A DNA stretch of 23,554 nt from a virus: positions 1 to 23,554 of the IMG/VR virus record IMGVR_UViG_3300048839_001225, one strand, 5' to 3'. Within the stretch, counting starts at the first letter, position 1, and every line of letters starts with the position of its first letter. Shown one piece after another: positions 3,419-22,423 of this stretch. The notes beneath the pieces are model-generated. The model was not told the origin of the DNA. It did no database searches and saw only the letters and a list, made by a program, of their open reading frames with translations. Position numbers and translations under genes: made by a program.

Positions 3419-3609
3419 CTCGCGCCCCACTTGGCCTGCGCGGCCCTGAGCCGCCGCTGGGTCCTCTCCAGCTCGTCGGCGAGCGCGGAGAGCAGAGGCT
3501 CGATCTGGCAGGCCCAGATCGTGCAGCCCTCGCAGCGGATGTTGCGCCCGACCTCCCGGGCCCGCTCAACCAGCCGATCCGCACGATCTCCATCGCGGCC
3601 GAGTTTCAT
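3415..3609 (-). CDS. Small Cys-cluster/coiled-coil early protein (64 aa)
   Basis: ATG at 3609 (MKLGRDGDRADRLVE) overlaps the stop of the replication initiator by 4 nt. The protein is two charged helices flanking three cysteines, C26, C29 and C34 (RCEGCTIWACQ). The second helix is a likely coiled coil (LLSALADELERTQRRLRAAQ). The Cys trio could bind a metal, but a fourth ligand is not obvious. Its place directly after the initiator, with translational coupling, suggests it works with replication; this is inference. Confidence 0.68.
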   Translation of the reverse strand: MKLGRDGDRADRLVERAREVGRNIRCEGCTIWACQIEPLLSALADELERTQRRLRAAQAKWGAR

Positions 3610-4727
3610 GGGGCATCCTCCTGGCTGGCGGCCTCCAGGACGCGCTCGAGAAGGCCGCGGGAGAGCACCAGGCGGCGCCGCTCCTCGGTCGTGCGGGACC
3701 AAAGCAGGTCCCGGTACCAGTTCGAGTCGGTGGTCCGGGCGAACGCCTCGATGGCCGCGTCGAGGCCCTCCTCGCCGAGTGCCTCGACGCGGGCGGCGGC
3801 CTGGCGTTCCGCCTCCTGGGCGATCGCCAGCTCGGCCTCGCGCTCCCGTCGGCGCCGCTCGGATGCGGATTCGGAAATCCGGTCCCGCTCCGCCTGCTCC
3901 CGCTGTCGCCTACGTTCGGCTTCGATATCCAAGAAGCTCGGTTCCCGGATCCGGGAGATGACCCAGCCCGGAACCCCGCCAGGCCGCAGAGAATCCCGCC
4001 TGGCGCGTCCGGCCGCCAGGGCGGCCCGGACCACGGTCGGGGTCGTCAGCGTCAGGCAGGCGAGCTCCCTGGCGGTCCGTGGGTCGATCCAGTCCGAGCG
4101 TCCGTACCACTCGGGCTTGCGGACGATCAGCTCGTAGCAGACCGCGGCGTTGCCGTCGAGACCGGCCCCGTGATGGACGGGCTCCGGCTCCGAGCGCGTA
4201 GATCGAACCCCACCACCACCACCATCCGCCCTGATGGTGGTGGTGGTAGAAGTCTTGTTAGATACAGTGAGGTATAACGGCGACTGATGTCCGCACGGCT
4301 GGACATCTGATGTCCGGACGCGTGGACATCTGATGTCCGGACGCGTGGACATCTGATGTCCGGACGCGTGGACATCGGGCGCGAAGATGTAAGGTACACG
4401 ATCGGGCTCCTGCGGCGGTACGTTGTGGGTCTGCATGGCACTCCCGATCGTCAGGAGATAGATCGACGCACGCCCCGTTCGGGTGCGTCGAAGCAGGCCA
4501 CGGGAGCCGAGCTCCGCCAGAGCCTGGAACATCCGGCTCCGCCCCAGGCCCGAGTGCCGGATCAGGGCGGTAGCCCTGGCCTCGACGGCCCACCCGTCCC
4601 CGTCGTCGTGCGGGAAGCTCATCGCGACCAGCACGCCCAGAAGCAGGCGGGCCGCCGGCGTGAGCCCCAGCTCGGCGCCGGTCTCGATCGCGAATCGGGT
4701 CATCGAGGCTTTGGATCGTGCGTCCAT
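3606..4727 (-). CDS. Lambda-O-like replication initiator with internal origin iterons
   Basis: ATG at 4727 (MDARSKASMTRFAIE) is chosen over an open extension because GAGGG lies 5 nt upstream. The 373-residue protein has a winged-helix-like N-terminal domain at about 1-95 (TPAARLLLGVLVAMSF; SGLGRSRMFQALAELGSRG; wing RTRTGRASIYLL). A low-complexity linker follows at about 115-180, then a charged, largely helical C-terminal region with a Glu/Arg coiled coil at about 265-320. The linker is encoded by four 23-bp iterons (residues 118-148) and a long hairpin (161-172). This is the architecture of lambda O: DNA-binding head, origin inside the gene, C-terminal part for helicase loading. It follows the integrase and heads the early chain. 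Initiator function is strongly suggested by architecture; a generic HTH regulator is the alternative. Confidence 0.82.
   Translation of the reverse strand: MDARSKASMTRFAIETGAELGLTPAARLLLGVLVAMSFPHDDGDGWAVEARATALIRHSGLGRSRMFQALAELGSRGLLRRTRTGRASIYLLTIGSAMQTHNVPPQEPDRVPYIFAPDVHASGHQMSTRPDIRCPRVRTSDVQPCGHQSPLYLTVSNKTSTTTTIRADGGGGGVRSTRSEPEPVHHGAGLDGNAAVCYELIVRKPEWYGRSDWIDPRTARELACLTLTTPTVVRAALAAGRARRDSLRPGGVPGWVISRIREPSFLDIEAERRRQREQAERDRISESASERRRREREAELAIAQEAERQAAARVEALGEEGLDAAIEAFARTTDSNWYRDLLWSRTTEERRRLVLSRGLLERVLEAASQEDAP
4212..4247. repeat. Long perfect hairpin next to iterons
   Basis: Bases 4212-4225 and 4234-4247 are perfect inverted repeats of the form (ACC)n/(GGT)n with a 14-bp stem and an 8-nt loop. 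It lies inside the initiator gene and encodes a Thr-run and a Gly-run. The stretch between it and the iterons (4248-4284) is the least GC-rich part of the gene and could be the unwinding element. The origin role is inferred by analogy with lambda ori. Confidence 0.75.
4285..4376. repeat. Four tandem 23-bp iterons, probable replication origin
   Basis: Units start at 4285, 4308, 4331 and 4354 with an exact 23-bp period. Each has the dyad GATGTCC-N8-GGACATC. The last three are identical and the first differs only in the N8 spacer (GCACGGCT in place of GGACGCGT). Because 23 is not a multiple of three, the encoded peptide reads the unit in successive frames (DVHASGHQ, MSTRPDIR, CPRVRTSD). Iterons inside an initiator gene, next to a less GC-rich stretch, match lambdoid origins. 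Confidence 0.9.
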
Positions 4728-4814: not shown

Positions 4815-5858
4815 TTACGACGGCACGAACCGCCGAATCTCTCGTTGGGCCTGGATCGCCCGCTCCTCGTCGGCGATCGCGTAGACCTCCGTCGTGCGGA
4901 GCTGGGAGTGCCCGGCAAGGGCCCGCCAGGCGTCCGGGTCGCGGGGCATCGCGCCCCGGGCCTCGGTGAGGACGCGGTGCCGGATCTGGTGCGGGTGCCA
5001 GGGCGGGATCCCGGCCGCGAGGCAGGCCCGTCGGACCGCCTGCAGCAGACTGCTCTCGGCGTAGGCTCGCCCGGTCCTCGGGCTCGCGAACAGCAGGGCG
5101 CCGGGGGCGAACGGCCGGAGGCGGTCCAGCAGTATCGCCTGGCAGGGCTCATCGAGCGGGATCGTCCGCGCCTTGCCGTGGTGGGCCGTCTTGTGCCCGT
5201 CGGGTCGGTAGACCCAGACCCCGTCCGCCCGCCCGGTGTCGATGTCCCCCGACCGCATCCGCCGGATCTCCCCGGTCCGGGCCCCGGTCAGGCGGAGCAG
5301 CTCGACCATGTCCCGCATGTCGCGGGTCAGGTGGGGGAGCGTCGCCAGGATCGTCTCGGGCGAGACCGGGCGGACGGGCGCGGGCTCGACGGCCCGGGTC
5401 CGCCCGGCCCGGAGGCCCGGGACGGCCCGCAGGGATTCCAGGGTCGAGGGGTCGACCAGCTCCTGGGCGACGCCCCAGGCGAAGCACCGCCGGGCGTGGC
5501 GGACGCAGCGGTTGATGTAGCCCCGGCTCAAACCCTCGTCGACGAGCGTCTCCCGCCAGGTCTGCAGGGCCAGGGCCCGGAACCGGTCCGCGGGCTGGTC
5601 GGCAGCGAACCTGAGCAGCTTGCCCAGGGTCGATCGGAGGTTCTTGGCCTCGCGGCTGGCCCCGTAATACTCCGAGGCGTGCCCGAGGAACCTGAGGATC
5701 AGGACTTCAACGGTCAGGGGGTGGGCGGTGATGGGGTGTTCGGGCTCCATGAAGCCCGAGGCTGCCACGCGTTCGTCCCCCGCCCAGACCGGGCTCGGGA
5801 AATCCGGCGTCGCCGCGCCGGTGGCGCGGGGTGCGCGGGTTGTCGCGACCGCTGACAT
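4815..5858 (-). CDS. int: Tyrosine recombinase/integrase
   Basis: This 347-residue site-specific recombinase would integrate and excise the phage at the attachment site. It has an N-terminal core-binding SAM-like domain (about 45-150) and a C-terminal catalytic domain (about 165-345). Catalytic residues are visible: R194 in TGARTGEIR, a Lys in HKTAHHGK (K223 or K229), H290 and R293 in HQIRH, H317 in AGHS, and the nucleophile Y326 in TTEVYA. Length is normal for the family and the motif set is intact. The HKTAHHGK..R block is a form I associate with planctomycete integrases. The gene lies about 340 bp from the partial tRNA-Gly that probably is attP, and 87 nt upstream of the replication initiator gene. 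Confidence 0.95.
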   Translation of the reverse strand: MSAVATTRAPRATGAATPDFPSPVWAGDERVAASGFMEPEHPITAHPLTVEVLILRFLGHASEYYGASREAKNLRSTLGKLLRFAADQPADRFRALALQTWRETLVDEGLSRGYINRCVRHARRCFAWGVAQELVDPSTLESLRAVPGLRAGRTRAVEPAPVRPVSPETILATLPHLTRDMRDMVELLRLTGARTGEIRRMRSGDIDTGRADGVWVYRPDGHKTAHHGKARTIPLDEPCQAILLDRLRPFAPGALLFASPRTGRAYAESSLLQAVRRACLAAGIPPWHPHQIRHRVLTEARGAMPRDPDAWRALAGHSQLRTTEVYAIADEERAIQAQREIRRFVPS

Positions 5859-6199: not shown

Positions 6200-6246
6200 A
6201 GCGGGTGATCGGACTCGAACCGACGACATTCAGCTTGGGAAGCTGA
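6200..6246 (-). other. attP: 3' half of tRNA-Gly(CCC): probable phage attachment site attP
   Basis: On the minus strand there is a perfect anticodon stem (TCAGC/GCTGA) with loop TTCCCAA (anticodon CCC at 6239-6237), a 5-nt variable loop, a T-arm with TTCGAGT loop, and the acceptor 3' strand CACCCGC with discriminator T. The 5' acceptor strand (expected GCGGGTG) and D-arm are absent upstream, so this is not a functional tRNA. A tRNA 3' half beside an integrase gene is the standard signature of an attP that restores the host tRNA on integration. The host target is therefore predicted to be tRNA-Gly(CCC). Confidence 0.88.
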
Positions 6247-6283
6247 TCGTCACTCGGCCCGAAAATATCGCGGCGGGCGAGTC

Positions 6284-20096: not shown

Positions 20097-20321
20097 TCAG
20101 CCGTCCTGGTCCTCGTCTTCGCGGTCGCGATCAGATTGGCGCATATGTGCGCCTTTCTGCGTGGCCGCGACGCCGGCGACCGTCTCCACGGTGAAATAGG
20201 CCGCTCCGCACCAGCCGCAGACGCGGCGACGGCGGACCTTGCCCAGGACCTTGGTCGTGCGGACGACGTCGCTCATCGGGCAGTGGCAGCGGGGGCATTT
20301 CAGGCCGCGGTCGGCGGTCAT
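20097..20321 (-). CDS. Stand-alone NrdR-like zinc ribbon protein (74 aa)
   Basis: Start ATG at 20321 overlaps the terminase stop by 4 nt. It has a C-x2-C...C-x2-C zinc ribbon: C9 and C12 in KCPRCHC, C35 and C38 in RRRRVCGWCGAAYFTVET. The RRRR.C..C....FT.E arrangement is very like the N-terminal zinc ribbon of NrdR repressors, but the ATP-cone is missing and the protein ends in a charged tail (RQSDRDREDEDQDG). Another option is a Mu Com-like translational regulator. It may control late transcription or translation. The ribbon is clear; the role is inference. Confidence 0.8.
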   Translation of the reverse strand: MTADRGLKCPRCHCPMSDVVRTTKVLGKVRRRRVCGWCGAAYFTVETVAGVAATQKGAHMRQSDRDREDEDQDG

Positions 20322-22423
20322 CGCCCGGCCCTCCGCTCCGCCTGGAGCTCACGCAGGCTTTTGGTCGGACGGGCGCGTTCCCGGGGGGCCTCGCGCCGTT
20401 CGCCCTCCAGAAGGGCCGCGCCGACGACCGAAGCGGCGACGCAACAGCCGACCACGCCGTCGAGCAGGTGGTTGTCGCGCCCCCGCAGAACCTTCCACTC
20501 GTCGACCGTGCGGCCGCCCGAGCTGGTAACCCGCTGCCGCTCCTCGGCCGTCAGATGCTCGGCGAGCATGCGGTGACTCTTGGCGTCGGCGGTGGTTCCG
20601 GGGAGCCAGAGCGCGGCCCGGTCCCCCCTGGGCGTGGTCAGTCGGGCCCAGGTGAACGATTTCCAGAAATTTGTGTCCCAGACGACCTCGCGAATAGCCC
20701 GACGGCCGCCGGGGGCCGCGATGAACCAGCCCGGGCCGATGCGGTCGCCGCGCTTCTTCGTCCGGTCGTGGATAGGCTTGGAGCTTGCCCCGTAGTATCG
20801 GCCTCGGCTCGGCATGACGCGGGCCGCGTGCCGGGTCGAGCGGGCCCAGCTGAAAACGGTCTCGGTGCTCCAGTTCGCGTCGACCATGAACAAGTCCAAG
20901 GGCACGACGCCGCCGCTGTGTCGCTTCCATTCGCGGTCCAGGAGGCGGGAGGCGAGCCGCTCCAGGCCGGCCGTGATCGCGCCCTCCTGGCCGGCTCCTG
21001 GCGCCGCCCGCTTAAGCGTCCGCTTGATGTCGCGAAGGGTGAAGTAGGCGCGGCCCTGGTCCGGCTCGGTCCCGTAGTCGACAATCCAGGCGTCGAATCC
21101 CTTGCCGTACGCGATCGCGACCCAGAACAGGGCTCGGCCCTGGACATCGGCGAACGCGGTCAGAAACTCCGCTTCGTCGGGAACCAGCCCTCTCGGCACC
21201 CCGGATACCCGCTCCTGGACCTCGTCGGGCTTCAGGATCGCCGTTTCCTCGTCCACGCCCTCGCGGATCGGCTCGTTCTGCAGTTCGGCGAAGAACATCG
21301 CGGGTTTGGCCAGGTAGACCCGCATCACGCCTTCGAGCGCCGAGGCCTCGTCGGGCTTGTAGCGGGCCTCCCAGGCGACGCGGGCCCCCAGGTCCATCTC
21401 GGCCCGCCGGTCGCGGTAAAAAGCGGCGGCGGTCTCCGTGTCGCCCGTGGGCAGGCCCGCCCGGTAGAGCTCGCCGTAGGCCTCCCAGAGGTCCATCCGG
21501 GTCGGAAACTCGTACAGGGCCCGGCATCGCTCGGCCCTCCATTCCGGGTGTTTCTCGACATTCAGCAGGCGATCGGCCAGGTCATCGGGCTCGATGACGG
21601 TGATCGCCGCCAGGCCCGCGATCGACTTCCCGGGTCCGGCCAGGCCCAATATGGCGTTGTCCACCACGGCCTCGCGGGCCTGGATCTGCGAGGGGCTTTT
21701 GGCGCTCTCGTCGGTCTGGGGGTCGTCGATCAGGACCAGGTCGGGGCGGACGCTAGACCCGTCCGCGAGGGCGTGTTTCATGCCGCGGATCCGGCCGGTG
21801 ATCCCGGCCGCCTGGATGACAGATCCCGAGACCAGCGAGTTCTCGACGGTCGGCATGACCAGCTTTCGCTCGGTCAGGCGGATCCGCGTGCTCCAGCCCC
21901 GGCTCAACTGGCCGGCGGCCCGCTGGCGGATGCCCTCGAGCCGACGGATCGGGTAGCAGACCTCGGGGAAGTCCGCCGCGAGCCGCTCGTTGGTCTCGAG
22001 CTGGACCAGGATCGCCTCGATGATCTGTCTGGCGTGGTCGTTCTCGGCGCCGATGATGACGGTGTACCGGCAGTGGCTGTAGAGCGTCGCCCAAATCGGG
22101 CTGACCTCGGCGAGCAGGCTGGTCTTGCCCGAGCCTCGCGGCATGGCCACGGCGGCCAGCTGGCCGCGGAGGACGGCGGACTCGATCAGGCCGATGACGC
22201 GGATGTGATCCGGCGACCAGGCCAGTTGGAAGATCTGCGGGAAGTATGTCTCGCAGAACATACGCAGGTCGAGCCGGCAGGCCTCGCGTCGGTCGGGTGT
22301 TTCGACCGGCGGGATCGGGCCGATGTCACGCGCGGTCCGGGAGTCCTCCGCCGCGCGGCCGGCCATGCGCTCGCGGTGGCGGCCGTAGGCGGAATCGACC
22401 TGTCCAAAGAGTCCCACCGCCAT
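20318..22423 (-). CDS. Terminase large subunit, lambda GpA-type
   Basis: A 701-residue DNA packaging motor and nuclease. Walker A is MPRGSGKT (94-101) and Walker B is DLVLIDD (228-234), in the N-terminal ATPase domain. The C-terminal nuclease domain has acidic residues at FADVQGR (D426), FMVDANWST (D515) and NHLLDGV (D655), as in the GpA family. Length is slightly above lambda gpA (641). No separate small subunit (Nu1-like) gene is recognisable immediately upstream; the neighbour is the virion protein at 22442. This gene starts the head module and is coupled to the zinc ribbon gene by 4 nt. Confidence 0.94.
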   Translation of the reverse strand: MAVGLFGQVDSAYGRHRERMAGRAAEDSRTARDIGPIPPVETPDRREACRLDLRMFCETYFPQIFQLAWSPDHIRVIGLIESAVLRGQLAAVAMPRGSGKTSLLAEVSPIWATLYSHCRYTVIIGAENDHARQIIEAILVQLETNERLAADFPEVCYPIRRLEGIRQRAAGQLSRGWSTRIRLTERKLVMPTVENSLVSGSVIQAAGITGRIRGMKHALADGSSVRPDLVLIDDPQTDESAKSPSQIQAREAVVDNAILGLAGPGKSIAGLAAITVIEPDDLADRLLNVEKHPEWRAERCRALYEFPTRMDLWEAYGELYRAGLPTGDTETAAAFYRDRRAEMDLGARVAWEARYKPDEASALEGVMRVYLAKPAMFFAELQNEPIREGVDEETAILKPDEVQERVSGVPRGLVPDEAEFLTAFADVQGRALFWVAIAYGKGFDAWIVDYGTEPDQGRAYFTLRDIKRTLKRAAPGAGQEGAITAGLERLASRLLDREWKRHSGGVVPLDLFMVDANWSTETVFSWARSTRHAARVMPSRGRYYGASSKPIHDRTKKRGDRIGPGWFIAAPGGRRAIREVVWDTNFWKSFTWARLTTPRGDRAALWLPGTTADAKSHRMLAEHLTAEERQRVTSSGGRTVDEWKVLRGRDNHLLDGVVGCCVAASVVGAALLEGERREAPRERARPTKSLRELQAERRAGR

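Follow-up and report, generated by a model that had tools for sequence, protein, structure and literature searches.

A predicted replication initiator gene in a planctomycete-type phage carries, in the part encoding its linker, four tandem 23-bp dyads adjoined by an AT-rich segment. From its sequence, we consider it very likely that the array consists of initiator-binding iterons which, with an unwinding element, form a replication origin inside the gene of their own initiator. An iteron origin at this place had been proposed in the initial annotation of the window (the whole 23,554-bp contig analysed here). It remains the best-supported reading, with the same dyads present in other genes for winged-helix (wHTH) proteins, and we infer binding and origin activity. 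Origins of this kind have been known since lambda; what is new here is the sequence of the site, its regular period and its occurrence in a planctomycete-type phage. The array is a likely replication origin for a phage group infecting planctomycetes, whose phage biology is little studied. Judged by sequence, the same arrangement is found in many unrelated phages and prophages.

The four units at 4285-4376 abut one another and have the form GATGTCC-N8-GGACATC. Tandem Repeats Finder reported 4.0 copies with a period of 23 at 4284-4376 (score 165), and the runner-up array in the window scored 69. The exact period and the dyad arms given in the initial annotation are thus confirmed: the 7-bp arms are perfect in 4/4 units, three units are identical, and the three changes in the divergent unit (4285-4307; unit positions 10, 14 and 15) all fall within the 8-bp spacer. 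Outside the array, the contig contains no further copy of the GATGTCC/GGACATC motif. A weak miRNA match over the array was rejected as a by-product of the dyads, and strong DNA hairpins at the array were set aside as evidence because any dyad array gives hairpins.

Table 1. Coordinates of the predicted initiator gene, its repeat array and neighbouring features in the window.
Feature	Position	Strand	Remarks
Predicted initiator gene, 373 aa	3606..4727	-	ATG start at 4727; phrog_270 match
Winged-helix DNA-binding domain, residues 2-98	4434..4724	-	AlphaFold2 pLDDT ~75-92 over most; H-H-E-H-H-E-E-H
Predicted disordered linker, residues 95-213	4089..4445	-	holds the array; pLDDT ~30
Helical C-terminal region, residues 264-369	3621..3938	-	AlphaFold2 model
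Iteron 1 (putative)	4354..4376	-	GATGTCCACGCGTCCGGACATCA; codon phase 0
Iteron 2 (putative)	4331..4353	-	identical to iteron 1; codon phase 2
Iteron 3 (putative)	4308..4330	-	identical to iteron 1; codon phase 1
Iteron 4 (putative)	4285..4307	-	GATGTCCAGCCGTGCGGACATCA; 3 spacer substitutions; codon phase 0
AT-rich segment	4241..4284	-	33% GC over 30 bp at 4247; 44% over 50 bp at 4241; contig 70% GC
Perfect 15-bp inverted repeat (ACC)n/(GGT)n, 6-nt loop	4212..4247	.	just beyond AT-rich segment
Integrase gene	4815-5858		upstream of initiator gene

The array had been placed in the linker of a predicted initiator, and the predicted protein agrees with this. It has a wHTH N-terminus, its residues 20-117 (the wHTH part only) match the phrog_270 'replication initiation protein' profile (E 9.3e-5), and the linker has low pLDDT in an AlphaFold2 model built from a shallow alignment of eight sequences. 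The HTH_36 profile (PF13730) scored 12.7 bits (E 0.11) against a gathering cut-off of 25. Neither Phage_rep_O (PF04492) nor RepA_N (PF06970) matched the 373-aa protein up to E 1, and the likeness to RepA_N is one of fold only; for comparison, lambda O matches PF04492 at 5.7e-36. When compared with the PDB, the wHTH fold matched the plasmid RepA initiators 4pql, 4pt7, 4pta and 5kbj (Z 8.8-9.8), with generic winged helices scoring equally or similarly. Among viral models it matched replication protein O of phage Min27, a 'lambda GpO N-terminal' protein and replisome organizers. No usable PDB sequence match was obtained for the 373-aa initiator or for lambda O.

Whole-protein searches for relatives of the initiator gave none in viral contigs, genome contigs or annotated phages. 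The sole match in 392 planctomycete genomes (L046) was rejected, as it lies within an unrelated UvrD/AddA-type gene, and no recognisable or usable homologue was present near related terminases in planctomycete prophages. The initiator also scores strongly with our in-house wHTH profile, but it is among the seeds of that profile and the score is not independent evidence. By family, these comparisons hint weakly that the 373-aa protein is an initiator.

As had also been annotated, the linker passes through three reading frames of the repeat. The minus-strand unit starts in the ORF at 3606-4727 fall in codon phases 0, 2, 1 and 0, so that all three frames are used, and the array encodes the peptide DVHASGHQ MSTRPDIR CPRVRTSD VQPCGHQS (residues 118-149). 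The initial annotation had concluded from the frames that the DNA is under selection. That conclusion stands on comparative evidence; the frames alone are no proof of it, because a fresh 23-bp slippage would look alike. Indeed, the array could be a coding minisatellite that arose by recent slippage and has no function at the DNA level, and the identity of three of its four units is what a fresh duplication would give. We regard this as very improbable. Perfect 7-bp inverted arms are unexpected from slippage of random DNA (at least two neighbouring dyads with the same 7-bp arms appeared in 0/300 shuffles of the whole window), and the differences between units are confined to the spacer. In phi2LM21 and a Bradyrhizobium phage, the arms are fixed while the spacers vary in sequence and length, and in three other groups (L017, L018 and L019) the array lies past the stop codon. 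Constant arms with variable spacers, together with arrays past the stop, indicate that selection acts on the DNA rather than on the peptide.

Among stretches of 30-60 bp, the AT-rich segment that adjoins the array ranks second in the contig for AT content, and it stands at percentile 0.01 among local 60-bp windows. It lies on the C-terminal-coding side of the array, which is the order found in lambda O, and is presumed to be a DNA unwinding element. Between this segment and the C-terminal coding part is the inverted repeat listed in Table 1, which encodes Thr and Gly runs. Genome-wide, the detrended cumulative GC skew has its minimum at 4232. Its precise location is determined by the hairpin at that site, and when 4200-4380 is masked the minimum moves to 4696. 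The amplitude of the skew is modestly unusual (p 0.016-0.03) and the position of the minimum is poorly determined, falling at most 1.5 kb from the array in 47% of bootstrap cases. The skew minimum lends weak support to an origin.

On this anatomy, the protein whose linker the dyads encode would most likely bind each 23-bp dyad through its wHTH domain, as a dimer. Adjacent dimers would be spaced by about two turns of the helix, and the four together could assemble into an initiation complex like the lambda O-some. Such a complex would strain the adjacent AT-rich segment (4241-4284) so that it opens, and the C-terminal part would then bring in a host or phage helicase. By analogy with lambda O and pSK41 Rep, the C-terminal region is presumed to recruit a helicase or helicase loader (PMC7466680, PMC5703833). 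No helicase loader gene was recognised adjacent to the initiator gene. Because the DNA site lies within the gene, the linker peptide would be a by-product and the site would travel with its own binding domain.

Several known systems have an origin inside an initiator gene. In lambda and Stx phages, it is established that O dimers bind translated inverted-repeat iterons and that an AT-rich region is the unwinding element (PMC7466680). Like the array described here, ori-lambda is placed centrally in its gene; its four inverted-repeat iterons, each 18-19 bp, are read as a linker and followed by AT-rich DNA and then the C-terminal domain (PMC7466680). We checked the lambda record, and its annotated iterons lie at the same place within O. 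Two features that define the lambda O-type class are present in the window: dyad iterons between the DNA-binding and C-terminal parts, and an AT-rich region on the C-terminal side. The initial annotation had drawn this parallel while describing the iteron as different, and both points hold; the order of iterons, AT-rich DNA and C-terminus is shared, whereas the arms are of the ATCCC/GGGAT type in lambda and GATGTCC/GGACATC here. Unlike lambda O, the present initiator falls outside Phage_rep_O, its phage is of planctomycete type, and its array has a strictly regular 23-bp period.

The RepA_N plasmid initiator pSK41 Rep is similarly built, with a wHTH N-terminal domain, central iterons in rep and a separate C-terminal domain (PMC5703833). 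The pSK41 origin is central within rep, and the linker peptide encoded there is dispensable for replication (PMC5703833). The pPR9 initiator, which is related to pSK41 Rep, has an N-terminal domain of the HTH_36 type (PMC5703833). However, pSK41 Rep comes from a family of Firmicutes plasmids that has a Pfam domain of its own, and this domain was undetected in the protein studied here. In Bacillus phage SPP1, oriL (in gene 38) likewise places repeats and an AT-rich unwinding element inside the replisome-organizer gene, but the repeats are direct, a second origin (oriR) lies elsewhere, and the phage encodes its own helicase loader and helicase (PMC6316719). The repABC plasmids also have oriV within the initiator gene, repC, beside an AT-rich stretch, although their oriV is without iterons and the initiator is of another family (PMC3155836). 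The comparison suggests that the present initiator works like those of Phage_rep_O and RepA_N; membership in either family is not supported.

Viral contigs gave no match to the strict tandem pattern, and the wHTH domains, when aligned as a profile, were too diverse to serve a pattern search. A relaxed pattern, TGTCC-N8-GGACA twice with a 23-bp step, matched 15 viral contigs, which form 10 groups by sequence. In 9/10 groups the array lies in a wHTH gene or immediately 3' of one. It falls within the gene as linker or tail in five (L008, L009, L011, L012 and L016), at the very end in L015, and directly beyond the stop codon in L017, L018 and L019; L022 is the only group that deviates. The dyads of L011 and L012 have exactly the window's arms. 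Profile support for a wHTH or initiator protein is good in L008, L011, L012, L016 and L017, modest in L015 and weak in L019, and L009 and L018 were judged by eye only; we counted six of the nine genes as well supported by profiles. Several of the wHTH genes with arrays match 'replication initiation O-like' PHROGs, and lambda O matches the same PHROGs. The gene next to the L009 initiator resembles a DnaC/IstB loader, and genes neighbouring other wHTH initiators include an annotated helicase loader and DnaB-like helicases. A reversed-arm control matched one viral contig, which is unrelated and has its match outside any wHTH gene.

A search of bacterial genomes totalling 257 billion bases gave 12 occurrences of the pattern; one of them (L028) falls in a wHTH gene and the others are mostly unrelated. 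Two of these genomic sites bear on whether the dyads are instead an operator array, at which the wHTH protein or another regulator would control transcription as a road-block or repressor. Dimers of wHTH proteins typically bind such dyads in operators, and tandem TGTCC-N8-GGACA dyads lie away from any wHTH initiator in the chromosomes of Streptomyces (L033, 6270-6310) and Kutzneria (L034, 7132-7172), where they are probably sites of an unrelated regulator. Against an operator, the array is ~350 nt inside the gene, and no promoter-like site was found near it in a search with the sigma-70 consensus only. The arrays of relatives lie within the domain, at its end or immediately 3' of it, with AT-rich DNA following. 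Furthermore, iterons at this position in lambda have been proven to be elements of the origin (PMC7466680). We therefore think an operator unlikely and favor iterons of an origin.

To avoid choice by motif, we assembled a set of 81 wHTH initiators on protein similarity only. Annotated phages contributed 15 of them (including lambda, which was added by name), planctomycete genomes 23, and two other phyla 43. An array was called when at least two dyads shared perfect 5-bp arms in the 500 bases around or after the end of the wHTH domain. By this measure, arrays were present in 9/15 annotated-phage, 8/23 planctomycete and 16/43 other-phyla initiators (17/38 plus 16/43, or 33/81), compared with 0.9, 1.0 and 5.6% of same-locus control windows, respectively. 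At least three dyads were found in 12/81 initiators and in 0/3,116 control windows. At this strict threshold, an array is present in about 40% of distant wHTH initiators and is common, not universal. In the literature searched, which had most subscription journals outside it, we found no paper describing the general pattern of arrays in wHTH initiator genes.

Arms other than the window's are found in many of these arrays, which share further features with the window. The dyad-to-dyad step is concentrated at 20-25 bp, or roughly two turns of the helix, and an out-of-frame step is present in 20/32 coding arrays. In phi2LM21, Nostoc phage Nsp-JY10 and the Bradyrhizobium phage, the arms are constant and spacer length varies between 6 and 10 bases. 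The 60 bases 3' of the array have lower GC than the locus in 26/27 loci (Wilcoxon p 3e-7), a set in which nine loci were motif-chosen and one is the window itself. In an independent set that was not motif-chosen, the 80 bases 3' of the array were AT-rich in 14/16 loci (p 2e-4).

Strand-biased GAAC/TAAC repeats follow the dyad arrays of many initiators, for example at L018 7851-7930, L049 1909-1988 and in L143. In the first 27 loci, GAAC occurs 45 times downstream of the array against 14 expected, compared with 15 times upstream and 7 times as the reverse complement. The steps are often ~12-15 bases, also where the region is non-coding (L018). The independent set is weaker and replicates this in part (GAAC 14 vs 7.3, TAAC 14 vs 5.9), and the window itself has one TAAC only.

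The survey suggests that an origin may be located from the initiator gene itself: where the linker of a wHTH initiator contains odd repeats that shift frame, they probably represent the site bound by the adjacent domain. If true, origins and their cognate site sequences would be predictable across many phages, and the matched pairs of domain and site could be used to learn how a wHTH domain chooses its DNA. A broader idea, which we put forward tentatively and hold to be rather doubtful, is that wHTH domain, dyad array and AT-rich segment make up one portable, self-targeting origin cassette in phages and prophages of many phyla. Such a cassette would be joined to different C-terminal parts or to none, with half-sites often TGYC and the array drifting between the linker and DNA past the stop; the GAAC/TAAC repeats in the opened segment would then be a second, undescribed origin element.

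Finally, we considered the array in the context of the phage genome. Dyad arrays are also found at centromeres, and an integrase gene is next door, as might be expected if the array were a partition centromere, a packaging site or a recombination site. We judge such a site to be highly unlikely. No partition gene was recognised, and a tRNA-like fragment (6200-6257) beyond the integrase gene is a likelier attachment site. The recurrence of arrays in wHTH initiator genes across phyla fits origins, not packaging. Integrase relatives (L005-L007) had no comparable array. The tRNA-like fragment, which may be the phage attachment site, is below the Rfam threshold and was missed by ARAGORN.

The contig ends (1-387 and 23168-23554) are direct copies of 387 bp with 98.2% identity and 7 mismatches (6 transitions), and the same reading frame is continued through them. 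Although the record is handled as a non-circular fragment, these matching ends indicate that the genome is probably complete at ~23.17 kb and either terminally redundant or circular. The terminase (20318-22423) has matches in 40/294 planctomycete genomes sampled, many of them full-length and mostly 40-54% identical, which places the phage as planctomycete type. These relatives point to a widespread prophage group with replication genes unlike those of this phage. Beside the terminase, a 74-aa ORF (20097-20321) matches an NrdR-like zinc-ribbon domain.
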